Positions 14,101 through 57,097 of a DNA stretch of 64,000 nucleotides are shown here, piece after piece; the first letter of the stretch is position 1; each line of letters starts with the position of its first letter. The DNA comes from Hexactinellida sp. DTS-2022 (lineage: Eukaryota > Porifera > Hexactinellida). Both the position numbers and the translations under genes were made by a program. Location of the stretch: positions 496,001-560,000 of the forward strand of contig JAPNXP010000013.1 of assembly GCA_028753945.1 (NCBI GenBank), in the 5' to 3' direction. The notes under the pieces were generated by a model, which was not told the origin of the DNA, did no database searches, and was given only the letters and a program-made list of their open reading frames with translations.

Positions 14101-17100
14101 TTGGTTGGAAACTATACACTTTTATTATCTTTCTTAAAATGGCTACATTCTGTCCGTGGTTAATTATACCATTTCACAATTTTCTGAAAAGAGTTCTGTA
14201 CATAGATATTCCTTTACTCAGACAGTAATTTTGTGGTTTTAACTTTGTATCTAGAGTAACCATTTTTCCACTTATTGTCTTATATCACACTCGTAAGGCA
14301 TAAAATGTCTAATCGTGCTATGTTCAAGAATTACTTGTAAACGAGTACTAACATCCGTTATACACACCTAAGTACTAAACTGCATACTTCATTCATTAAT
14401 ATACGTACTATCATACCTATGTATACTTGATTGCATGATTATAGTATTACATATAACTGTGTTAGTATATAAGCAGTTGATACTAAGATAAACAATAAAT
14501 TGATATTGGATTTGTTTCTACTCGAAAAATGTATTCGTTTTTTTACTCATTTCTCGTGATAAACGCGATTTTTAACTATGTTTCATTTGGAAATGGTATA
14601 TGTCGCGAATCCCAGGCTTGCCGCAGAAATGGAATCTGCATCGAAGGAAATAACTGCTCTTGCCAAGAAGGTACGTTTGGAGAATTCTGCGATTTTAAAA
14701 ACACGGATTTTGTGAACTCACTTGAGTCCCTTCGTTGTGAGAACAGAGAAGGTGCTATTATACTTGACTGTCTGAATGAAGGGATTTGTATAGCTTTCGA
14801 TAAAACACAGTCTTTTTGTGCTTGTTTCAACACTGAATTCACTGGTGACCTGTGTCAGTTTAACCGTACTTGCGAGCCGTTTTGTTTGACGCCTGAAATT
14901 AGTGTCACAGGGGAAATAACTTGTCCTATTGGCCAGTTACGACTATTCGAAGCTTGTCAGGATAATGGGCTTCCTTTCCCTAGCACTGAGATTCCTGCAG
15001 TAACTACGATACCTAATGTTAACGCTACAGTAGGGCCTCTTACAGAGAACAGCTTCGTTATAATTCTTGTGATAGTAAACGTGATATTCTTACTAATCAT
15101 TGTAGCGATTTCAACGAGTTTCATTTGTGTGGTATTCTTTGTTGCCAGAACTGTTAAGAGGAAGAGGTCAAGATCTAGATTCCAATCTCGTAGACTCGAC
15201 ACTGAGATTAGTGTACCAACAACGAACGGACTCTCAAACGGGAATCAACTACGTAATCTTCCTATTAACCAGTATGAAGTTCCGTACGATTATTTACCTC
15301 GTATTAATCCTGTTCTGCCTGTTATAGTGCAATCCTCTACGATTCCAACTGTTTCCATTACTGAAACGAATCTACCGGAATTACCGTATGAAGTTCCGAA
15401 GCAAACCCTTCGCGTGCCACTCCCTATTCAGCGGAATCGCTTCCCAGACACTTTCCGTGTTAATAACCGCACTTACTCCATCAATAGCAATATATCCGAC
15501 TTATACTTCCAACTGGAAGAGTTCCATGACAACAATGAGAGCATCGCCCCAGGATACGCTGTGATTGTTCCTAGTGCGAGTGATAGAGAGAGCACAAGGA
15601 ATGGAATTACAAGGAATTCTTTAAAGAACAAACATCCACCACCAGTGCCTCCCAAACCGAAGCATTCCTTACTGACATATTGGGAACCAGGCAAGGACTT
15701 TCCATCGCTTTTCGATCAAATGCACAAATCTCGCTATAAAGAACTCAAAACTGAAAACTTGAAAATATTCAATTTGATTGGGAAAGGAGAGTTTGGAGAT
15801 GTCTGGAAGGGTACTCTTGAAACGCCCATCGGTGAAATTCCAGTCGCGATTAAACTCCTAAAAGACACATTAGGCAAACAAGAAAACATATCTTTCCTCC
15901 AAGAAGCAGCCATTATAGGCCAGTTTAACAATATTAACGTTTTAAAGCTGATTGGAGTTGTCACACTATCTGAGCCCAAGCTTATAATAACAGAGCTGAT
16001 GGAAATACAGCTTAGGGATTATCTCCTGCAGTTAAAAAGACGGCCGTCACTTCCTTTTAAGGAAATCGCATCTATTTTCCTTGGCTTCTGTAGGGGCATA
16101 GCAATGGGTATGGCCTACTTGTCTCAAAAGGGATTCATTCATCGCGACCTAGCGGCTAGAAACATTCTGCTTGATGCACAAAACGAATGTAAAATCGCGG
16201 ATTTTGGCATGACACGACGCTTGATGGACAATGACTATTACAAAATGACTGAGACAGCCATAATCCCATTGAAATGGTCAGCGCCCGAATCGATTTTTTA
16301 TAAGAAATACCAGTCAAAGAGCGATGTTTGGAGCTACGCAATTGTTCTATTCGAGATTTGGAGTTTGGGATGTAAACCTTGGCCATACGACAAACTCGAA
16401 TCAGTAATAAGCAAACTTAACCAATCAATTTTAATGCCTCCTCCACCCGGGTGCCCGCGTGGAATATATCTAACAATGGTTTTGTGTTGGCACCCTGATG
16501 CTGACAAGCGTCCCTCTTTCACAGAATTGTGTAGCATATTCAATGAAACTAGCATTGATTCCCTACAGCCCCCACCTGGCAATGGTGAGGATACACAGTT
16601 GGGACAAGATCTGTGTTGCAGTGAGGATTTATACAAAGATCTACAGTACTCTTATAGGAAATAAACCCCTTGACAATCTGTTGACATTATAGTAATGTTG
16701 ATCCAGCTGAATGATCGTGTAAATTTCATTTGTATATTTACTTTTAATTAAATTACATACTTTTGTTATTCAATTAATTAAAGCCAACTATTGTGCTCTC
16801 ACAAAGGGTTAACTAAATCACTGATTAATTATAAATAAAGAACTTTGCTTAATTTATTTCCTTTTCGAAATTGATTCTTAATGCAGTCGACTCCGCTTAA
16901 TAGGGTCAGTTTTGTTCCAGGGTAGTTTGACCCAATTATGCGGAGAAATCTAATAACCGAAAGTATTTTGAGTCAAACTGTAATTCCGTCTTATAAATCC
17001 TCTGAATCCTGTGAATCCTGTGAATCCTGTGAAATCTATTAACCGGAGGCTCTATTAAGCGGAGTATACTATATACAGCCAGGATCTTTTATTATGAACA

Positions 17101-20045: not shown

Positions 20046-20209
20046 AAGTAGACTCTTGTTAATACAAACTGTCGAAATTTATCATATTATCCTGAAATCG
20101 TATTACCTGGAGTCACTTGCATGCATTTGTTTAGGCTAGAGGAATTAAACCATGCACTCCTTAACCGATATTTCACTTTATCCGTGTTTGTATTAACGAA
20201 AGTCTACTG
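20046..20209. mobile_element. Family A TA-element ending 23 bp before the POLR1A start
   Basis: Left arm AGTAGACTCTTGTTAATAC, right arm GTATTAACGAAAGTCTACTG before TA. It occupies most of the 434-bp FANCM-POLR1A gap, so any POLR1A promoter or leader must overlap or lie beside it. Confidence 0.75.
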
Positions 20210-20232
20210 TACATCTAGATAGCATTAATCTA

Positions 20233-23200
20233 ATGTGCGATGCTAGAATTGTTCCTAACGTTATAACTCAGGCGGAGTTTGACAATGTATCTATCTCCTT
20301 CTACACAGATGAAGAGATTAAACAGTTGAGTGTACAGAAGATATACAATCCGATAGTATTCGATTCTCTCCTTTACCCCTTACCTGGAGGGCCACATGAC
20401 TATGCCCTTGGGCCACTCGAAAGCAATGAATCATGCGTCACATGCGGTTTAACTGCCGCGTTTTGTCCAGGACACTTTGGGCACATTCAGCTCCCATTGA
20501 TAGTATATAATCCTGTCACATTCACTTTATTATACAAGCTTTTGAAGAAAAGTTGTTATGTGTGTCACCGTTTTCTGTTTAAATCTCCTTTGGATGCTCT
20601 TTTGCTGGAAGGCAAGCTCCGACTCGCGACTGCTGGGTTTCTGTCTGAGGCGATTCAACTCGAGGAGATCGTGAACAGTGAAGAAATTAAGGAATTTGAT
20701 CCTAGCGACATGCAGGAAGCTATCGACGCTGTGTTAGCTGATAAGATAGGCGATACGGCTTGTACGGATGAGAAAGAGACACGACATGTTAAGCAGTATA
20801 AAAACAGTTTAATTACCGAACTCCTGAAGTCAACATCAGCATCTAACACCTGTAAGCATTGCGGTGCTCCATTGAGAGTAGTGAGACAGGATTTTAACTC
20901 TAAGTTCTCTCTAATGCCTCTGTTGGGTAGGAAAGTGAAAAAGTATCTCGAAGCTTGGAAGACAGCACGTACTCCGGATAGCCAGCTTGACAACGAGAGT
21001 GGAGAAGAGGAATTTACATCACGCACCGATATCGATGTGAAATGGTGCACTACGAATGTATTACTCACTCCGTTGGAAGTTAGGGAGCATATCAAGCTGC
21101 TTTGGCGGTTGGAGAGTAGTCTCATAATCGCGCTTTTTAACGGATATTCTAAGTACAACACTAACTCCAACTTTGATCACAATGTTTTATTTATTTCCGT
21201 TTTGCCAGTTCCACCAAGCAACTGCCGGCCTATGGCACACTATAACGAAAAGTCTTATGAAGGCCCACAGACTTCTAATATTAAAAATATTCTAATTCGC
21301 GTTGCTGAAATGCAAAAAGCAATGAAAGATTTGAAAGAAAAACAAGACAAAACAACCAAGGATTACGAACAGTTTCAGTATACCTGGGCCCAGTTACAGA
21401 ATGCGGTGAATGGCTTTATTGACTCAGATTCCAGTTATATAAAGACACAGAAGATTTCTACAGGAATTAGACAAATGTTAGAACACAAACAAGGACTTTT
21501 CAGACAGCATATGATGGGCAAGAGAGTCGATTACTCAGCGAGATCTGTAATATCTCCTGACTTGAATATTGACGTGGATGAAATTGGGATTCCTTTGGTG
21601 TTCGCCACAACTTTAACTTTCCCAGAGCCAGTGACGCCTTGGAATGTCAAACAGCTGAGACAGGCTATTGTCAATGGCCCTTTGGTGCATCCAGGTGCGA
21701 CACACGTGGAGGATTCAGATGGGACCCGCGTGCTATTAAACGCGAAAAGTCAATCACAGCGCGAAGCAATCGCGAGACAGCTGGTAACACCATCAGCACT
21801 CGGGAGAGCACAAGCCGCGAAAAAGGTACACAGACACCTTATAGACGGAGACGTGTTATTAGTCAACAGACAACCTACACTGCACAGGCCTTCTATAATG
21901 GCACACAAAGCACGTATTCTCTCCGATGAGAAAACCCTGCGTCTCCACTACGCTAACTGTAAAGCCTACAACGCAGATTTCGATGGAGACGAGATGAACA
22001 TACATTTGCCGCAAGACCAAATATCTCGTTCTGAGGCTATAAACCTGGTAGCTACTCCGCACCAGTATCTAACTCCAAAAGACGGATCTCCTATAAGCGG
22101 ACTTATACAGGACCACGTTATAGGGGGCGTGCTGCTAACCATGAGAGGGAGAATGCTCGATGTACACACTTACCATCAGTTAGTGTATTCGGCATTACCG
22201 GAGTTTAAACAGAGGTTTATACTATTGCCTCCTTGCCAGATTAAACCTAAAATACTCTGGTCTGGCAAACAGGTTATATCTACGGTGTTAAGGAATGTAA
22301 TACCGAGTAATGAGATTCTACTCTCGATGCATGGTAAGACTAAGTCCGGTAGCTTACAGTGGGCACAGGAACGGTTTATGAGCGAAAACGAAGTTATAAT
22401 TCGCGATGGAGAACTCCTGTGTGGAGTTCTGGACAAGAGTCAGTTCGGTTCTTCTCAGTTCGGATTGGTGCACGCTTGTCACGAGTTATACGGATCAGCT
22501 GTTTCCAGCAAGCTACTGTCAGCTTTCGCGCGGTTATTCACAGTATTCCTACAGCACATTGGGTTTACAATGGGCATACAAGATATCCTGTTAACAGAGG
22601 AAGGTGAGAAACTCCGCAATTCCATTCTATCCAAAGCAGAGGGCGCGGGAATAACCGCAGCTAGAGAACTGTTTTCCGCAGAAACAGACGATGAAGAAAC
22701 GCTACGCGATAAGTACAGACAGCTACAAACCACAGGAGGGGCAGCCGCGAAAGCGCGCGCTGATATTATATTCAAGAAGCACGCTAACCTCATAAACAAC
22801 GAGTTGTACAACAAACTCAACACAATGCATCTCAAGCCATTCCCCAGCAATGCCCTGCACCTAATGGTGGATGCGGGCGCAAAGGGTTCTGCAGTGAACA
22901 GACTGCAGATATCAGCTCTGCTCGGGCAAATAGAGCTAGAAGGAACCAGGCCCCCGTTAATGGTATCAGGGCGCTCCTTGCCTTCACACCTGCCCTATGA
23001 TATTAGCTTAAAAGCAGGTGGATTCGTAACAGGCCGCTTTCTGACCGGTATTTCCCCCCAGGAGTACTACTTCCATTGCATGGCCGGACGGGAGGGGCTT
23101 ATCGACACAGCTGTTAAGACGAGTCGCAGCGGGTATCTCCAGCGGTGTCTGGTTAAGCATTTGGAGGGTTTAAAGGTCAACTATGACCTCACTGTGAGAG

Positions 23201-26200
23201 ATAGCGACGGGTCGGTTATACAGTTCCTCTATGGAGAAGATGGAATTAACGCGGAGAGATGTGCTTATCTTAATCCCGAACAGTTTAAGTTTATTAGAGA
23301 CAACATGCAAGCTATGAATCGGAGACTGTTGATGGATATTGCAGTGCCAAGACTTAAGCCAGGTATGGCAAGGGATTATATTGAAAAGATTACAACGAGA
23401 GTTAGTAAGCGAGCTCGCAAGCTAAAATGCACAGCTTCAGATTTCCTATTGAATAAGAGCGGTAATGCTACTCCATTCCTTAACTATTATTCTAAGTGCA
23501 GCGACGAGTTCCGTATTGACTCTGGACAGGACCTTATGATGCCTGAGTTTAACAACAGGAGACTATGGCAGCTGGCGGCAGTGGAACATTGGTACCGATT
23601 AACTGATGAAGAAGTGGAGAGATACGGGAAGTATACTGAGACTTGCTATGATACTGTGCAGAGTGTGTTTCAACCTGACTTGCATATTGGTAAGTCTTAT
23701 AGGTTATGCAGTCAGGTCTGCTTATTGTGAACAGTTTTTCATCTGCTTAATAATATGAACACCTTTTAATTATGAACAAGCGCAATGGTCCCAAATTAAC
23801 AACTTGGATAATGCTTCTATTAAGTTGAATCGCTTATTATGAAGTCTCTCTTTTATAACACAAATCATGGTCACTTGAATGTTCATAATAAGAATCTGAC
23901 TGTATTTCTTGCTATTTGACAAACTGAATTTATTTATACCTTACCGCTATCTAGGGAGCATATCGGAGAAGATGGATTCTCTAATAAACAACTATTTCGC
24001 AACTGAATTCCATTCAGATTCATCAGATGTATCAGCTGACGAATTCCGCACTTGTTTAGAGCTTAAATACATGAACTCTCTGTGTCAGCCCGGGGACCCA
24101 GTGGGCCTGCTGGCTGCTCAGTCCATAGGCGAGCCCTCCACACAGATGACTCTTAACACCTTCCATTTCGCAGGCCGCGGTGAAATGAATGTGACACTTG
24201 GTATTCCGCGATTGCGGGAGATAATAATGACTGCCTCTGGTAAGATTAGCACGCCTTGTGTTAAGATTCCACTCTTGAAGGGTTTGGATATTGGAGCAGC
24301 TCAAGAGGTGGAGAGGTCTCTGCGGAAAATAACAGTTGAAGAGGTGCTAGACAAGTTTGAAGTGTTTGACAGTATTGCTTCTAGCCAGACCGACATAAGG
24401 TACTTTGAATGCAATATTTTGATATTTGTTCATTATGTTAATCTTATTGTAGAATACAGTACACCCTCGCTAATCCGAACGGGATATCTAACAATTTTTG
24501 TGGTTAAAAAGATAATAATTTCTATTTGAATTTGAATTTTTATACGTAGTAAGGTTCATGTTCTCTCATACAATAATATAATAGGTTTGTAATACATAGT
24601 AATATTATTATTTATTCCTATATAAATGTATTATACTTTACTAATCCGAACAAATTTACTACTCGGAACACCTCTTTTCTGATTAGCGAGGGTATACTGT
24701 AATACGTATTTATGAGTATATTATTTAATTATTTTCTTTTTGAAGGTATCGTAAAGTTAAATTGAAGCTTTCTTTGCTTTCGAACAAATATTTGAAATCT
24801 ACATTTGGAATTTCTCTCAAACGAGTTCTCTCCTACATCGAAAATAAGTTTATACGCATCATCCTAACTACTTTAACACGAATGGTCAAGAATCAACACG
24901 ACACAGTGACTAAGGTAAAAGTAGATAAGATTATTGAGGAGAAGGAGTCGGATGTACAAGATGACGAAGAGGGAGATACAAAAGCAAGTAAAGGCGAGTT
25001 TTAAGTTGTAAACTCAGAATAGAGGGACAAATTCTAAAAAGTTTACTTTTTGAAATTTCGAAAGTTTGCTTTATTAAAAATTGTTCATATTCGTTAGTTT
25101 ACGCATCAAGAATATCACACAACAATTGAAATAAACAAACCAACAAAAAAACAAACAAACAAGCAAACAAACGAATAAATAGTATATAATAGTAAATAAT
25201 AAATAATTAATAGAAATAAATAAATAGATTAATTAATAACAAATAGAATATCACAGATCCAATTAACTAACAAGACTATCTAATATTACTCCGGTTAATA
25301 CGAACTCCGAATAAAGCGATCAAATTTGCACCGTTCATTGGTGTTCGTAGCGTATTAACGAGGTTCTACTGTAACTAACTAAATGATCTAATTAACAAAT
25401 AACAATTCCACTAATCTAACTCGGCTATCTATTATAGCTGACCAGGTGCGGGACAGTATGTTGGAGCGAGTAGAGTCCTCAGACTCGGGAGGAGAGCTGG
25501 AGTCTGAGGACATCAGGGGATCTGCTAGGGAGAGACAGTACGCTAAGTACTCTGATGATGAGGGTAGCGGGAGTCAGAGCGGGAGTGATGGGGAGGTGGA
25601 GCAGAAGCAGGGGGAGCAGAATGGTAGTGTGTATTTGTATTTACACAATTTATTGGGTCTCGGTAGCTTCGCTTGCTTTTTTATTAAGTACCTAGAGTCC
25701 TAGACTCTTACTTATTTTAGTTAGTAACAAGAAATATTAATAGCATTTCAAGTTGATTATTTTACAAACTATTTAGTGTATAATTTTGCCATTAAATTCA
25801 TTTTTATGAAATTCGCTTAAAAGTTCGCGCGTCCGAGATTGAGGATTTCAGATTTTATCTTAACCTTTCATTTCATTTTTCTGATTATTTGACAGAGCTA
25901 AATCTTAGACATTTGTTGATTTAATTGTTACAATTAGTGGATAGACTAACTATCTCAGTATAATTAAATCGCACAAATAATCTAATACATATTGCTGTTT
26001 ATAATAATGTGTTTACACAGAAGATGATAAAGTAGCGAACATGGAAGTGACTGAACAAGAAGAGGACTCTCTTCTAACAGCTCTCTCGCCTCTATCCATT
26101 CAGGAACAGGATAATATAACAGAGCGAGCTAAGAAAGTACTAGGCGCATTCCCTCAAGTTAGACAGTACACTTACGATCAGCACAAATACAGATGGTGTG

Positions 26201-44183: not shown

Positions 44184-44267
44184 GTAATTGAATTTATTAT
44201 TTGCATCAAATAAATGTTTTCTTGTAGTCACATAAAGCCATTGAAATACAGAACAATACCACACAAT

Positions 44268-46133
44268 ATGAAAATCCTAACGACATTTATCCTCATCTCG
44301 GTATTCTGCTGTATAATCGCGGTTTTTCTCACAAACTGTGAGGAAATTGAGGAAGACGAGTGGCTCAATATTGAGCAGTTTCATCGGAAATTAGACAAAG
44401 ATGAGGATGGCACTCTCAGACAGTCTGAAATTATAAACGATGTAAACGAATACAATTCAATCCAAGAAACTCCGCTCGATGTTGATTTCGACGAAACCCC
44501 GCTCTCTCTGCGGAACCTAATGCAACAGTGGTCGCAGAATCTGGCCAGGTCATGGACACCTCGCCAAGTGGCAGAATGGGCTAAAGTCACAGTTAAAATG
44601 CCAGAGATCCTAACTCGTATCCACGACAAGAAGATATCTGGTAGCACACTGCCTATACTAGCTGTAGACAGAGACCAGATTGTACGTATATTCCCTGGAC
44701 TAGACAGTGGACTTGTTGACAAACTAATGGTATATGCATTCAAACTTGTAATCTCAGGTCCCTCTGAAAACGAAATCCCCTCGCCCTATGATGATAGTAA
44801 TAAGGATTGGGTTGCTTTTGAGCAGATCGTAGTCTTCTTTAAGGAAATGGACAAGGACGATGACGGTTGTGTGGACATGGACGAAGCAGATGGGGTAAGG
44901 GACGGACCCGCCCTGGCCAGTAGCACTCCCTGTGATGAGATTAGTATCGAGCATAGGACCCTAAGCGAGGTATGGGAATACTGGTCCAAGTTTAATCCGG
45001 TTAGGAATTGGACTGTGGATGAGGTGAGTACTTGGCTTGAACTGGAGAACTTGGGAAAATATATTGAAACATTCGCGAAACATAAAGTTGTTGGGTTACA
45101 TCTTCCGCGAATCGCTGCGAATGCTAAGACATCCTTTCTCAAAGAATTAAATGTTAACAAGGAAGATCGCAAGAAACTAATGATTAGCGCAATAACGTTA
45201 GTACTGTTCGGGCCTTCGAAAGTTGTCACTCAGTCGCATCTTTTCGCTGACATTCTTTTCGCGATTTTCTGTGTCGTGATCTCTAGTGGCGCTCTTTGGT
45301 ACGGCTTTAATCAGCGGAAACTGAAGATGGAATATGAAGGTAAATTTGTGGACAGTGAAAATAGTTTGGAGCATATTAAACAACAAATGCAAATACTAAA
45401 TGAGATTGAGAAATCAATCGAAATAGAGTTGATAGAGGTACCCAAGATAGAGGAAACAGAATCAATTATTGAAATACACCATGAAGACAGTACACGTATT
45501 ATAGTTAAATACGAAACTCCAGATGAACTGATAATTCTACTTCGCTCCACTTACCTACGAGAATACGAGTTCTACGATCTCAAGAAACTAGACATTGAAC
45601 AGCTGATTGACAAGGCCAGACGTCAACATGAGAACTTAAAACGCAAGCATGGAAATATCCTAAGCGCTCTCTTCATCTCAAACACAAGTGTGTTGGACAA
45701 CAATGAAGTCCTTATGGTTGACACCAAGTCTCGTTTGGACCAGCTAACACACGATATGCATGAACTAAACCAGCGCTGGCAGAAAATCGAGTCTCTAACT
45801 CAATCTTCTCTCATACAGCACTCTTCAACACGTCGTGCTCACAGCCAACACTCACTAATGTCCTATAGCAGCCATATTACATTGGATACCATAAGCACTT
45901 TCGATTCATCCGAGAACAATAATGGTATTGATAGCATTGATTCCTTAAAAGAGCCTCGCGACAATGAAATGTACCGTAGCACTTCGTGTCCTAAGTTGAA
46001 TGTTAATGTGGCAACAGCGACTAACGGTAATAACGAATCGAGTGACCGCAGGAAGAAGTCTAGCAAAATATCAATTACCAATCCGATCAAAAAGTTCATT
46101 GCAAGTTCTGATAAACCAACTGAAATTAAGTAA
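44268..46133 (+). CDS. STIM: STIM-type store-operated calcium sensor with two luminal EF-SAM modules
   Basis: A single exon. I choose the ATG at 44268 (621 residues): it begins with a good signal peptide (MKILTTFILISVFCC), whereas the ATG at 44214 adds 18 residues in front. Numbers below count from 44214. Module 1 has the EF loop DKDEDGTLRQSE (61-72) and a SAM domain (about 113-182). Module 2 has the EF loop DKDDDGCVDMDE (213-224) and a SAM (about 265-333). A membrane helix follows at 343-364, a short coiled coil at 370-410, and the SOAR/CAD region at about 438-530 (LREYEFYDLKK, SALFISNTSVLD, LNQRWQKIE). The tail is serine-rich with a polybasic end like the PIP2-binding tail of STIM1. STIM senses ER calcium and opens Orai channels. 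Known STIMs have one EF-SAM and a longer CC1; this protein has two EF-SAMs and only about 75 residues between membrane and SOAR. Confidence 0.92.
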   Translation: MKILTTFILISVFCCIIAVFLTNCEEIEEDEWLNIEQFHRKLDKDEDGTLRQSEIINDVNEYNSIQETPLDVDFDETPLSLRNLMQQWSQNLARSWTPRQVAEWAKVTVKMPEILTRIHDKKISGSTLPILAVDRDQIVRIFPGLDSGLVDKLMVYAFKLVISGPSENEIPSPYDDSNKDWVAFEQIVVFFKEMDKDDDGCVDMDEADGVRDGPALASSTPCDEISIEHRTLSEVWEYWSKFNPVRNWTVDEVSTWLELENLGKYIETFAKHKVVGLHLPRIAANAKTSFLKELNVNKEDRKKLMISAITLVLFGPSKVVTQSHLFADILFAIFCVVISSGALWYGFNQRKLKMEYEGKFVDSENSLEHIKQQMQILNEIEKSIEIELIEVPKIEETESIIEIHHEDSTRIIVKYETPDELIILLRSTYLREYEFYDLKKLDIEQLIDKARRQHENLKRKHGNILSALFISNTSVLDNNEVLMVDTKSRLDQLTHDMHELNQRWQKIESLTQSSLIQHSSTRRAHSQHSLMSYSSHITLDTISTFDSSENNNGIDSIDSLKEPRDNEMYRSTSCPKLNVNVATATNGNNESSDRRKKSSKISITNPIKKFIASSDKPTEIK

Positions 46134-46949
46134 AATTAAATATTACATTTTGCCCTTTGTCGGTTCCTAGTTTTATTAGTTATTTGATCTATTTGAAGAC
46201 TTGTTAAACTTAGATTATTTAATCAGCTGTGATTGTGGGAACTATCATGTGTGTTTCTTTCTTAAGTGCAACTATTGATTAATAACTTATCAATACAATT
46301 ACCTGAATTGAGGGAATTTTAATGTATCTTTCGATGTTTACTTGATAGGTAATCTAAATAATTTATTAATATAGGCTGGGAAATATGTTTTATTTACTTA
46401 TCATGACCTCATCCAAGACACAATGCTGTATTATGGGAATAGATTTTTAATATTTCTAGTTAATCAATCTTCAGGTTCATATTTGTAATTATAAGGGATT
46501 TTTCGTTGGATTAGCGAAGGTTCGGATTGAGTAGGTATACTAGAAGGAACTGGTATAATTACATACAGTAACTATGTTGTATTAATATATGCAGTGGTGT
46601 ATTACTATTTTAACAAGTGGGGGAACGGTGTTATAACATAGGTCACTTATGCTAGTACATCATCATCATCATAAAATTTTAATGATTGATTTTATGATTG
46701 AAAACGATAGAGAATAATTATTTAGGAACAACATTCAATACAATTAACTATGATCAATTATACAATAGTATGTGTTATTCTACGGGTCAAATTTTTTTGA
46801 AATTTGATATTATACTAATCTGGATATTAATTAGTAGCTTATTAAATTATCAATTTATTCTTTCGATATACGTAACGTATCACTATGTTTAGGAAATATT
46901 ATCTCTCTACTTTGCTACTCTATTATAAGCTAGGACAAAGGAACTTGTG
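46134..46949. other. Gap without a recognised gene
   Basis: AT-rich sequence with a fragment of a TA-element arm (GGATTAGCGAAGGTTCGGAT) near 46510-46530 and a short CATCATCATCATCATAA stretch at about 46660. The 64-codon ORF at 46698-46892 lacks support. Confidence 0.55.
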
Positions 46950-47408
46950 ATGTCAAGCTTGGCTTCTGTCTCTAACAATCCTTTGAGTATTGATAAAATC
47001 AAATTAAGTGAAAAGCTACAAGCTATATCACCAGTAGATAGATTGCTTATTCCTGACGAATTCTCTGTTTTGGCTCTGTCTTATTTGAACATGAAACCGC
47101 CTACTGTCGCGAATGCGGAATCGCAATTGATTTCTGACAATGGTTTAAATCCTTCAATTAACAGAGTGAATGAGAAAAGTGACATAATTTTACCCTCCAA
47201 AGGAATTTCTCAAAATAGTCCAATAAATTTGGTTTCTCAAGATTTTATAATTCCTCCCTCTATTGAATTTCCAGCTGTTACTATTGGACACGAGAGTAGA
47301 GAGGAAGAGAAGACTGACGCATCTGAATCAACTCAGAAATTACTTGCTACCCCCTTGGGGCTAGAATTAGTTGAAGAATTAGAAGACTGGCTTGATGAGT
47401 TGATGTAA
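46950..47408 (+). CDS. Short acidic protein with an AVEN-like C-terminus
   Basis: A 152-residue single-exon ORF. The C-terminal VEELEDWLDELM closely matches the EELEDWLDSMI end of AVEN, and residues 15-45 (IDKIKLSEKLQAISPVDRL) could align with the SELLVRALQELPLCLRL segment of AVEN. AVEN is a cell-death inhibitor and ATM/ATR regulator that in vertebrates has about 360 residues with an RG-rich N-terminus, which is absent here. The frame is closed by a stop just upstream. Either this is a short family member, or an N-terminal exon was not recognised. The call is tentative. Confidence 0.45.
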   Translation: MSSLASVSNNPLSIDKIKLSEKLQAISPVDRLLIPDEFSVLALSYLNMKPPTVANAESQLISDNGLNPSINRVNEKSDIILPSKGISQNSPINLVSQDFIIPPSIEFPAVTIGHESREEEKTDASESTQKLLATPLGLELVEELEDWLDELM

Positions 47409-49303: not shown

Positions 49304-52300
49304 ATGGCTTCAAGGGCTTCAACGCAGCGAGCCGGTAGCATATTCCAGGACCCCAAGAAGCGAGAGTCTATCGCAGCACTGCAGGGGTACGACTTCTCGA
49401 ATCCACCACAAATCTTGTATTCCGACATTAAAAAGAAGCTTTCATTCGCTCACACACGAATGAAATCTTCCTACTCAACATTTGATCTAAAAACATCGCT
49501 TTCCACTGTCCGTGAAAACAAATTCTTTGTCCCTTCAAAGAGCACTTCAATGACGCATCTAAGCCTCAGTACAATGACCACACCCATATCTCGACCAAGC
49601 TCCGTGCGTACTAAAAGCGTAACGGAAACACCCAAACTTATTGGAACAGTCGTTGAACCTAAAATTATACGCGAGAAGGAATTCATACATTCATCAGCTA
49701 AAATCGTTCAAATATATCTAATAGAAAAAGCATACGAAAACCCGATCACTTTTAAAACACTACTCAGTCCAACGGTACCTGAGATCATCAATATATTTGG
49801 ATTCCTCTTATCTTTCTTTTACAAAGAACTAAAGAATGAAGTAAAAGTTAAAGAGGATATCCCGAATGTTTTATCGCTTATTGGCTATCCATACACTATT
49901 AAGAAATCTATTATTTCTGCTATTAACTCACCGCATAACTGGCCTACCATTCTCGCTTCGCTAAGATTCATTGTAGAACTCCTAGAAAATGTTTTGCCTC
50001 ATAATTTAGGAATCGATACTTTGTTCCCTCCTACTTCATTTTCTGAGGAAATCGGACCTGTGGAACAAAACAAGGAAGAAATTATTCGTAACAGTTGCAT
50101 GTTCGCTTCTAGAGATAAGCCGGAAGTATTGGAATTATACCGTAAGGAGAGATCTGAATATTATGGAGAATCTCTGTACAATCTGAGGGACGATAGAGAT
50201 CAGCTGATGATCAGACGGGAAGAGCTATCGGAACTCAACACTGAACATGAAAAGACTACTCTAGCTGTGTACCAGAATGAATGGCAGGATAAATGCGAAC
50301 AAAAGCTATATCAACGTCAACAGCTGACTGCTATGGAGCAGAAACTACGCGCTAAGCAAGATGATCAAATAAAATTAGCACAAGAGATCCAATCTATTCA
50401 GAAACAAACCACAGAGGAAAAACACAAAATTGAAACGCTTGCAGCTCAAATTAAATGCCAAGCGATTAATATAGAAACTGCTATGGACATGAAGGATGAC
50501 GTAACCACGATTCGCCTCGAAATCGAAAGACAAAGAACATTCATTTCTAACTACAATGATAAAATCATTGAGCTGAGAATACAACATTCCAAACGCATGT
50601 CTAAAGTGCGCGCTAAAATGTCCCAAACGAATCTTGCTCTCAAACAAATAACTCTGTCCTACCAGGATTGCTATGAGGGAGCGGCCGATCAGCTGGGTAT
50701 TCAGTTCGAGACTGCGAACTACGAATTCATGAAGAGTCCGGAACAGCTGAGCAGAGAGAATCAACGCAACATCGATATTCTACAGGAAATAAAAGTACTG
50801 GCTAACACCACTAAATCTCAATTCCTGCAGAATGAAATTGAAGCAAACTACAGTGTGGACGCACTGAAGAACAGTGCTATAGAGAAAAAACTTGAGATCA
50901 AAGAACTTGAAAGCCAAAATATGTTGCAAAAAGAAGCCAACGATAAGCTAGAGGAGATAAAAATAAATTTTATGCAGGTATAGTATATTTAGAGCACTTC
51001 AAAGATATAACTATATCAAAACAACTCATTCAACTCATTCAAAAAACTGAGTTTTTTTGCCAACTCAAAATGAGTTGATACAGCCCGGATCCTAGTATAT
51101 TCCTTTCGTTGTTTGTGCTTAAAGATATGTGTTAATTAAGTGTTTAAAGACATTGTAATGGACATGTCTGTTATGGACATGTCTGATATAGACATGTCTG
51201 TTATGGACATGTCTGTTATAGACATGTCTGTTATGGACATGTCTGATATAGACATGTCTGTTATGGACATGTCTGTTATAGACATGTCTGTTATGGACAT
51301 GTCTATTATGGACATGTCTGTTATGGACATGTCTGATATAGACATGTCTGTTATAGACATGTCTGTTATGGACATGTCTGTTATAGACATGTCTGTTATG
51401 GACATGTCTGTTATGGACATGTCTGTTATAGACATGTCTGTTATGGACATGTCTGTTATAGACATGTCTGTTATAGACATGTCTGTTATGGACATGTCTG
51501 TTATAGACATGTCTGTTATGGACATGTCTGTTATAGACATGTCTGTTATGGACATGTCTGTTATAGACATGTCTGTTATGGACATGTCTGTTATAGACAT
51601 GTCTGTTATGGACATGTCTGTTATAGACATGTCTGATATAGACATGTCTGTTATGGACATGTCTGTTATGGACATGTCTGTTATGGACATGTCTGTTATA
51701 GACATGTCTGTTATGGACATGTCTGTTATGGACATGTCTGTTATGGACATGTCTGTTTTTGACTCCATTAAGCGGAGAAATCTATTAACCGGTGGCTCTA
51801 GTAAGCAGAGTCGACAGTTGTTAATTATTTTAGCAATGTTGTCCACGGTGAGTTGAGTTAAGTCAACAAATTCCTTATTTAATGTAATCTGCTTTGATCA
51901 TTGTATTATTAATAGCTACAATTAAATAAAAGCCAGCTCAAATTCACAAGTTAAATCTATATATTTATCGCAAGTTGAAACAATACAGTAAGATTTAATA
52001 GGTTAAACCAATATATTTATTACAAGTTGAAACAATAGAATTAGATTTAACAGTTTACTGAGTCGAATGTGTGAGGAAGTCCAGGCGATCGGCACCCCAA
52101 TTATGGCAAAACGAAACCCAATTTGAAAATTCGTGCACTGTGAAAAGGTGTAAAATTATATTCTCTATCGAATGCATATAAATTTAATTTCGGGCATTAT
52201 TTATTGTTCATGTTGTGGTTAAATAGGTTCAAAAATGAGTCCAAAAAAATGTCATATAAATCGTGACCCCAGGTGCACATCTGTAACCCATGAGACACCT

Positions 52301-54539: not shown

Positions 54540-55493
54540 TTACAAAGCACTTTTACGCTTATTTGCCTTGAACGATTCCACTTGGTCTTTGCGTCTAGTT
54601 TCACTAATCTCTCTTGATATTCCTGTAAGGTATAAGTTAGCAATGATGGAATTTATTCGATTTCGGCATTCAGGATAATGTAATTCACAAGAAAAGGTTG
54701 TGTCCCATTGGTTTGATAGCTCTTTAAGTAGACTGCATATAAGAAGTTTCAATGGTATCTTGGTTGCAAGCATCCTTGTTTCTAAATATTCAACACAGCA
54801 AAACGCGCTTTCTACGTAACTATAAAGGATTGAAGATGGTAACTGAAGGCCGCCCCTATTTAATGCGCTAATAAAACAAGTTTCAATTGGATCTTTATGA
54901 AGAAGCTCGGAACAATCTTGGCATTCAGAGTATTTAAGGAGAGAACGGGTAATGTATCCTGAAACATACACAACTACATCTTTTGTATCATTTGATAAAA
55001 CAAGCTGCTCAAGAGGGTTAGAGTGAACACCAAAAATAAACTCCTCAATTTGCTGATTGATGTCGTCTTTAGTATTGAGCTGTAATTCAATAAAATCAAT
55101 TTCGCGTTTAAGCAGCGCCTGGTAAGAAATAATCGATTCTGAACGGAGAACCTCTGTCAAACTAACAAGGAAACGACCTCCACTCATTTGTCTGTAATGT
55201 GAGAAACGTCTTTCCAGAGGATCTGTTTGGAATCGACCTGTTAACACAAACTCATAACCATCTCGGATCAATGCAGACGACAGTTCGATAATAGCATTGT
55301 TAGTTGTGATCATAGCATTAAAGGTTTGTTTGGAAAAATCGAGTGCTTCTGACTGCTTCCAAGTTGTAAGCCATTCGTTCATTCCCCGCAGAAACACGAT
55401 TTTATTCTCACAAGTATTCGAATCGATCGCATTACCGATCGGGTTAGGGTGATACCGCTCCTTCGCATTGACAATAAGCCACCATGCATTCAT
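54540..55493 (-). pseudogene. P-type transposase, C-terminal part (after frameshift)
   Basis: A 317-residue ORF continuing the transposase in another frame. It includes FQTDPLERRFSHYRQMSGGR (about 89-107), where E94 would be the third acidic catalytic residue of the RNase H-like fold of P transposases. Its frame stays open upstream of its first ATG and runs past the stop of the preceding ORF, which is what a one-base loss near 55500 would produce. On its own it lacks the DNA-binding domain and the first two acidic residues. Confidence 0.85.
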
Positions 55494-55498
55494 AAGTT

Positions 55499-57097
55499 CT
55501 AGAAATGCTGGTGTACAGAATCGTCTCCCATTAGATATTGGCGCATTGCAGTTGTTGTTTTAGAATCAAAAATAGCTAATGCAAGAGAAACTGACTGCTT
55601 ATTATTTCCAGGATGGAGTACTGAGTAGTTAAGTGCAGGAGCTTTACGAAGGTGACAGCCCAATGAGAGATCATAATCATGCACCTTGTGGAGGCTAGAC
55701 CAACGTACGTGACCGTCTGGAACACATATCAATGAATCCAGGAGAGGTAACTCAACTCTAGGGATGGTAAAGAAACGATTGTTGAGTAAATTATTACGAA
55801 CGTTCTTTATGAGGTGAACGGTATCAAAAAACAAATAAACTATTCGTTCTGTAAAAGGATTTCTCATGCAATAGTTTTTGTTCTCAATAGGAAATTTTTT
55901 TGTGAGCTTATTGAAAGCAGAAATATTACACTGGTGATTGTCCGATATCACGCAACGAGGCTGGAAATTGGCATCACTTAAAACCTTGAGACAGTTGAGT
56001 ATCCAATCAAAGATAATATCTGAGGACAATTTCACAATTGGAACAGCTTTAATGACATACGGTACGGTCTTTTTGAGAGAAATAACCATAAAGCATAGAA
56101 TGCTCTTGAACATTTCAAGATTTTCATTACAACCGATGATATCTTGGCCATCAAATTGCACTTGCTGCTGAAAATGCATTTCATCTAAGAGAAAAACCAC
56201 GTCATTACCAATACATCCTTCGTCTCGAAGTTTACAAAGTGCTTTAAGACTGTCAATAGAGTTTGACTTGAGTTTGCGTAATAATCGAACACTAGGTAGA
56301 GTCATGTGGCGATGTAGAAATATATATGCAGCATGAGATGTGTAGCGTAATTGAAGAGCGAATCGAAGAACATGCGAAGAATATGTACAGCCCTTAGGAG
56401 AATAATTACAAAGATTTAAGAGTTCTTTAACAGGATCTATGTCAAAATTATGAGATGGATTCTTGCAATAATTCGGCAAATTGGTGAGCATATCCAAGGA
56501 AGTAATTTTGCAGTTAGCTGAGTTCGTTATAAATTCTGGTAGAGGTATAGGAGAACTTTCAAAGCTTAACTTAACATGTAAGTCACTTGTAATGTGAATA
56601 CACTCTTTCACCTGAGCAATGCCTGAATAAATTTCCACACGATAGGTAGTAATACAAGCTTCAGAAATACAATGCGTGAATTTTCGGTATTCACTAGCAG
56701 ATTTTATGTATTTAACAACGTCGTCAAAGTTAGTGACCGCGAATCGTTTTTTGAAGAGATGAAGCTGATCAGGTTGCAGAACGCGTTTAGCGGGCGGTTT
56801 TCTGACAGATTTTGGAATAATGGCTTGGCTCTGACGAATTGAAGTCGGATGTATTGTTGGGATTGGGTTCAATGACATGTTGAGCCTCGTTTTGTGCTGA
56901 TGGTACGATATATACTTCGAGTCAAAGTGTTCCATACAAATTCGCGATGAAGAAGTAATTTCGAAACCATCACGGTTAAGAAATGCGATCCACCGTTGTC
57001 GTAGATCAGCATTTTGAGGAAATGAAAACATTGCTCTATCAGATCTGCCAATATAACCAGAACGGCAATTTACCACAGAACATTTAAAAGGCATCAA
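55499..57097 (-). pseudogene. P-type transposase, THAP and catalytic N-terminal part
   Basis: A 532-residue ORF. The THAP zinc finger is C6-X4-C11 and C54-X2-H57 with the typical PIPTIHP end. A helical region follows, then the RNase H-like domain with likely catalytic D305 (FLLDEMHFQ) and D386 (CVISDNHQC). The later part (DTVHLIKNVRNNLL) matches the GTP-binding insertion of P/THAP9 transposases. It stops at 55499-55501, before the third acidic residue, which lies in the next ORF in a shifted frame. I see no other stop or frameshift. Translated as is, it would be a DNA-binding protein without a complete active site. Confidence 0.88.

Follow-up and report, generated by a model that had tools for sequence, protein, structure and literature searches.

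Vertebrate STIM1 and STIM2 share a signal peptide, a single luminal EF-SAM, one membrane helix, a CC1 segment, SOAR and a basic tail. C. elegans STIM likewise has a single EF-SAM, as does its solved chain (PDB 6pw7), and it is this chain that our comparison covers. Several SAM domains per chain, as in the protein described here, are found in SARM1, liprin and caskin, which are cytosolic, lack EF hands and SOAR, and were matched as SAM folds only. According to the accessible part of PMC12718381, the calcium-bound EF-SAM of human STIM1 acts as a steric brake, since its deletion drops resting occupancy from 70% to 59% while the larger MBP put in its place gives a resting occupancy of 91%, a result that concerns human STIM1 only; CC1alpha2/3 of the same protein forms a separate brake. 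Calcium loss leads the SAMs to pair and CAD to be released (accessible text of PMC12871627), and STIM1 and STIM2 differ in affinity (accessible text of PMC11506743).

The window analysed, a stretch of 64,000 nucleotides, contains at 44268..46133 (+) a STIM coding sequence of 621 aa that, judged by the genome sequence, is a single exon. Its predicted parts follow the order signal peptide, two EF-SAMs where STIM1 and STIM2 have one, one membrane helix, short CC1, SOAR and tail. The sequence-only reading had proposed this arrangement of two tandem EF-SAM modules, a short CC1 and SOAR in one open frame, and our analysis bears it out. The luminal EF-hand and SAM, the SOAR/CAD, the signal peptide with a single membrane helix, and the presence of Orai in the genome all identify the protein as a STIM. 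We judge the tandem EF-SAM with short CC1 to be genuine and well supported, a domain arrangement new to an established family. As had been supposed, no STIM of this form was among the matches listed in the open-access literature on STIM evolution and duplicated EF-SAM, and the accessible parts of PMC11506743, PMC1904252 and PMC7016017 make no mention of a doubled EF-SAM. Two candidate precedents were rejected: in the accessible text, 'two EF-SAM' in PMC9873985 and 'two SAM domains' in PMC12871627 denote the two halves of the STIM1 dimer and not tandem modules. A search for relatives gave 13 pattern matches in prokaryote contigs and 5 in viral contigs, none of them confirmed.

The open frame spans 44214-46133 (+), 639 codons, with the stop at 46131-46133. 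The upstream ATG at 44214 runs immediately into a pyrimidine-rich stretch ending in AG, TTTTCTTGTAG (44217..44227), which on inspection looks like a candidate 3' splice or trans-splice acceptor and lies before the likely start, ATG 44268. Two hydrophobic peaks exceed the threshold, at residues 1-27 and 319-348; both calls come from hydrophobicity over threshold. The N-terminal peak, the strongest in the protein, marks a putative signal peptide (residues 1-23; 44268..44336), and the other a membrane helix at about residues 325-347 (45240..45308), in agreement with the single membrane helix originally described.

The membrane-proximal module 2 (residues 173-318; 44784..45221) is, by Pfam and sequence matches, a clear STIM EF-SAM, with STIM2 as best match (E 6e-15). 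Its EF loop (residues 195-206; 44850..44885) retains Asp at position 9, and its SAM domain (residues 245-309; 45000..45194) matches Pfam SAM_2 at E 3e-10. The N247-W-T of this SAM is the counterpart of the glycosylation-type NWT at N131 of STIM1 and is retained in module 2 only, not in module 1. The hidden EF-hand stretch of module 2 shows a gap opposite STIM1 I115, and gaps were required to align the EF part of either module to STIM1.

Module 1 (residues 24-172; 44337..44783) is more divergent in its Pfam scores. When it was searched alone, nothing exceeded the curated cut-offs (EF-hand_STIM1 0.051, SAM_PNT 0.045, SAM_Ste50p 0.1); since profile and PDB searches gave clear results, this null was not counted as absence. 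Against 177,635 PDB sequences, the only significant matches of module 1 were worm STIM, STIM2 and STIM1 (E 3.8e-9, 5.3e-8 and 1.7e-5; next match 0.69), and none of 2000 shuffles reached its alignment scores. These sequence comparisons mark module 1 as a real EF-SAM despite the sub-threshold Pfam scores. Its EF loop (residues 43-54; 44394..44429) carries Asp at positions 1, 3 and 5, Gly at 6 and Glu at 12, with Arg at position 9 where STIM1 has D84. The position of STIM1 H72 is occupied by His in module 1 and by Phe in module 2.

Structure prediction, one of the checks originally suggested, gave a divided answer. From a single sequence AF2 returned a full-length model of mean pLDDT 32, which is unusable; for module 1 alone, the five models scored between 37 and 59, and the highest-scoring one was used. 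In this model pLDDT was about 72-81 over most of the SAM part (about residues 89-167; 44532..44768) but below 50 over the EF part. Foldseek placed three EF-SAMs at ranks 1-3, one of them with E below 0.001, for a model whose EF half lies under pLDDT 50, and the solved structure nearest to module 1, by sequence as well as by Foldseek, was C. elegans STIM (6pw7). With VIA-align the best EF-SAM, again 6pw7, tied with plain SAMs, while STIM1 ranked 28 and STIM2 ranked 32. The SAM-like segment reported after each EF loop is thus found in both places, the second by its Pfam match and the first, below Pfam thresholds, by sequence and a predicted SAM fold.

Both loops are acidic at positions 1, 3 and 5 with Glu at 12. 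The EF loop pattern occurs twice in the protein; it occurred at least twice in 0 of 20,000 shuffles and at least once in 78 of 20,000, so that the report of two EF loops is upheld. The equivalents of STIM1 L195/L199, which we take to anchor the SAM in the EF cleft, are hydrophobic in both modules (F/I in module 1, I/L in module 2). Between the modules 33 of 130 aligned residues are identical, and in a five-sequence tree they group with 52% bootstrap, a value that does not settle the date of the duplication. Such figures suggest that the modules are old or fast-evolving, and the duplication therefore need not be limited to one species. The layout could then be genuine but ordinary, a tandem EF-SAM common in sponge STIMs and merely undescribed; we consider this quite possible, although we lean against it.

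The genome-wide searches covered an assembly of 112.4 Mb in 18 contigs. The whole protein found itself and one weak match confined to residues 244-306, the module 2 SAM (E 0.002), and the SOAR model hit one place. The Pfam STIM EF-hand model found nothing in this genome; it thereby misses a STIM gene that exists there, and its null is no evidence of absence. The gene at 44268..46133 is the only STIM found. Two Orai frames lie elsewhere (E 7.3e-37 and 7.5e-35), each with the selectivity-filter Glu at the expected place, given what we take to be the position of that motif. Five Ins145 matches were obtained, three in stop-free frames and two with stops; the three IP3R-type frames (2639, 2664 and 2704 aa, at G000:C8:1877617, C8:1941460 and C18:1234424) are giant single exons. 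Long single frames are thus seen for STIM, both Orai and all three IP3R-type genes. With one STIM, two Orai and IP3R-type genes, the parts of store-operated entry are present.

From its gene content, the assembly probably belongs to a sponge and perhaps to a glass sponge. The traits considered for Hexactinellida were absent Wnt and Dishevelled, a single Frizzled, few homeobox genes and an abundance of single-exon genes, and the uninterrupted STIM, Orai and IP3R-type frames were weighed under the last of these. There were at least 16 homeodomain matches, and the four inspected were by eye Msx-, NK-, Barx- and POU-like. Wnt gave 0 matches in a search without positive control, two Frizzled-family frames were found (one with an Fz domain, one without), and of two DIX matches one lies in a CH-DIX protein and not in Dishevelled. 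The glass sponge Oopsacas minuta, according to the accessible part of PMC10280926, possesses neither Wnt nor dishevelled, has frizzled B as its only frizzled and encodes 20 homeodomain proteins including Msx, BarX and NkX. The two DIX matches, even with one of them the CH-DIX protein, argue against a glass sponge, as does an assembly larger than the 80 Mb genome of Aphrocallistes. GC in the window is mostly 32-39%, with one 4-kb block at 43%. A stretch near a contig end (G000:C4:37500-43500) has a GC of 0.515, compared with 0.33-0.38 in six other stretches; its 704-aa frame pairs a CH domain with a DIX domain at the C-terminus.

On the cytosolic side, CC1 (residues 350-415; 45315..45512) is short. 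From the membrane-edge glutamine to SOAR there are 66 residues, compared with 110 in STIM1, so that the shortening is confirmed; the length first estimated was about 75 residues. Sixty-six residues are too few for the CC1alpha2/3 hairpin. The segment begins with ENSLEHIKQQM, where STIM1 has EQSLHDLQERL; this likeness to CC1alpha1 is weak and suggestive (54 of 2000 shuffles score as high), and CC1 as a whole shows no significant likeness to STIM1 (159 of 2000). After the alpha1-like start about 27 residues are left, which cannot hold the two further helices of STIM1, with the extents that we take CC1alpha2 and CC1alpha3 to have. A PDB search with the CC1 segment gave no STIM match, its sole match being an alcohol dehydrogenase at E 0.36. 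The STIM1-type CC1 with alpha1, alpha2 and alpha3 helices, a sub-feature that is not obligatory for a STIM, is therefore absent here.

SOAR/CAD, in turn, is as clear as the sequence-only reading had it (residues 417-511; 45516..45800): PF16533 matches at E 1.1e-17, 64 bits against a cut-off of 25, and the alignment to STIM1 has a z of 17, with 0 of 2000 shuffles reaching its score. The CC3 positions that receive the clamp in STIM1 (I409, L416, V419, L423) are M, L, L and M, a hydrophobic face for CC1alpha1, and the basic clamp may hence be retained. Of the different clamp previously suggested, the part that stands is that a CC1alpha2/3 brake cannot fit; the CC3 face taking CC1alpha1 has been kept. 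At the apex, the basic KIKKKR of STIM1 is NLKRKH, and F394 and H398 are replaced by Leu and Asn, the Leu as in STIM2 L485. The chain 3ter, presumably worm SOAR, has Leu and Thr at the apex and is likewise without Phe and His. In the accessible part of PMC10616141, H398 of STIM1 is called indispensable, most changes of it abolishing gating, and human STIM1 F394L forms resting puncta in more than 40% of cells. These mutant effects leave two readings of the SOAR described here, adaptation to the Orai of its own genome or weak activation. The tail had been called polybasic; over its 105 residues the net charge is a modest +3, but a basic cluster occupies the last 29 residues (46044..46130; 9 K/R, 3 D/E).

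Taken together, these features suggest that the sole STIM found in this genome is probably an ER-membrane sensor that activates Orai on store emptying, with module 2 as the main switch and module 1 as an addition. Module 2 adjoins the membrane and has the canonical loop; on calcium loss its EF hand would release the SAM, the SAMs would pair and SOAR would be freed. Module 1 would be an extra EF-SAM, with which luminal bulk and SAM number are both doubled. As STIM1 has both a steric brake and a CC1alpha2/3 brake, and here the lumen is doubled and alpha2/3 is missing, we propose that restraint may have moved from cytosol to lumen, the doubled lumen possibly offsetting the lost brake. Such a shift would be the simplest account of both changes, although the two might be unrelated. 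A full rebuilding of autoinhibition, in which the second luminal EF-SAM replaces CC1alpha2/3 and each dimer has two unequal kinds of calcium site and four SAMs, is put forward tentatively and is on balance unlikely.

In favour of module 2 as the main switch of an Orai-activating sensor are the clarity of module 2 and SOAR, the support for module 1 from sequence and Foldseek, the complement of one STIM, two Orai and IP3R-type frames, and the hydrophobic residues kept at the CC3 clamp positions and at the L195/L199 equivalents of both modules. Against it stand the non-significant CC1 similarity, including its alpha1 part; the apex Leu/Asn, though the worm SOAR chain is also without Phe and His; and the poor AF2 model over the EF part of module 1 together with the VIA-align tie between EF-SAM and plain SAMs.

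The role of module 1 admits other readings. If the modules bound ER calcium with different affinities, the response could be two-step or cooperative, and one gene might cover the roles of STIM1 and STIM2, which differ in this respect. The acidic positions 1, 3 and 5 and the Glu at 12 in both loops are consistent with two such thresholds, but Arg in place of the position-9 Asp suggests a weaker calcium site in module 1, where binding may be weak or absent, and module 2 has its own gap in the hidden EF-hand at STIM1 I115. We regard two thresholds as unlikely. Alternatively, the module 1 SAM may add valency and so build larger luminal oligomers, calcium binding by its EF-hand being unimportant. 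The SAM half is the best-modelled part of module 1 and matches many SAM structures, loop 1 is altered at position 9, and the tandem SAMs of AIDA-1, which bind each other, offer a precedent (accessible part of PMC11506743). However, drift would tend to erase the other acidic positions of loop 1 if calcium were irrelevant, and these are kept; a purely clustering role seems distinctly doubtful.

The gene model was assessed by codon usage, with four large neighbouring frames as reference. In frame, module 1, module 2, TM-CC1, SOAR and tail each fit, with values of 0.18 to 0.30 bits per codon, whereas each of their five remaining frames gave a value below 0. For the 23-codon signal peptide the value was -0.105 in frame, with two other frames above 0. 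At the DNA level, no identical run longer than 9 bases is common to the two modules, which argues against a recent tandem misassembly; a misassembled module was among the refutations that the sequence-only reading had named. An artefact, whether a wrong gene model with one module spliced out or an assembly fault, is thus very improbable: although the gene is known here from genomic DNA, and a GTGAGT at 45024 within module 2 strongly resembles a 5' splice site, the frame is single and open, both modules carry coding signal, and at 25% identity they have no long DNA repeat between them.

Other genes and repeats share the window. At 14499-16664 (+) lies a single-frame transmembrane tyrosine kinase with a confirmed kinase domain and an ectodomain that is EGF-like by eye, though a search at E 1e-4 matched no EGF domain. 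At 20197-24529 (+), two long frames, one of 1177 codons and one of 209, are separated by a break that is probably an intron and belong to a gene that we take to be RNA polymerase I large-subunit-like. A 159-aa frame at 46929-47408 (+) has no Pfam match at E 1e-4, and its end presumably resembles AVEN. Just downstream of an NDC80-like gene, a 15-base tandem array of about 40 copies with 93% match (51154-51757) is open in several frames on both strands. At 54540-57097 (-), two overlapping frames of 532 and 339 aa encode a THAP / P-element-type transposase, the 532-aa frame containing THAP and RNase H-like domains.

Most work on STIM activation concerns proteins in which a long CC1 accompanies a single EF-SAM. 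The STIM described here, in which the EF-SAM is doubled and much of CC1 lost, offers a natural test of the role of each brake and of possible cooperativity in luminal sensing; its existence suggests that the layout of STIM can vary among animals. In glass sponges, calcium action potentials travel through a syncytium (accessible part of PMC5095125), and if the source is a glass sponge, this variant may set calcium refilling in such a body-wide conducting tissue.
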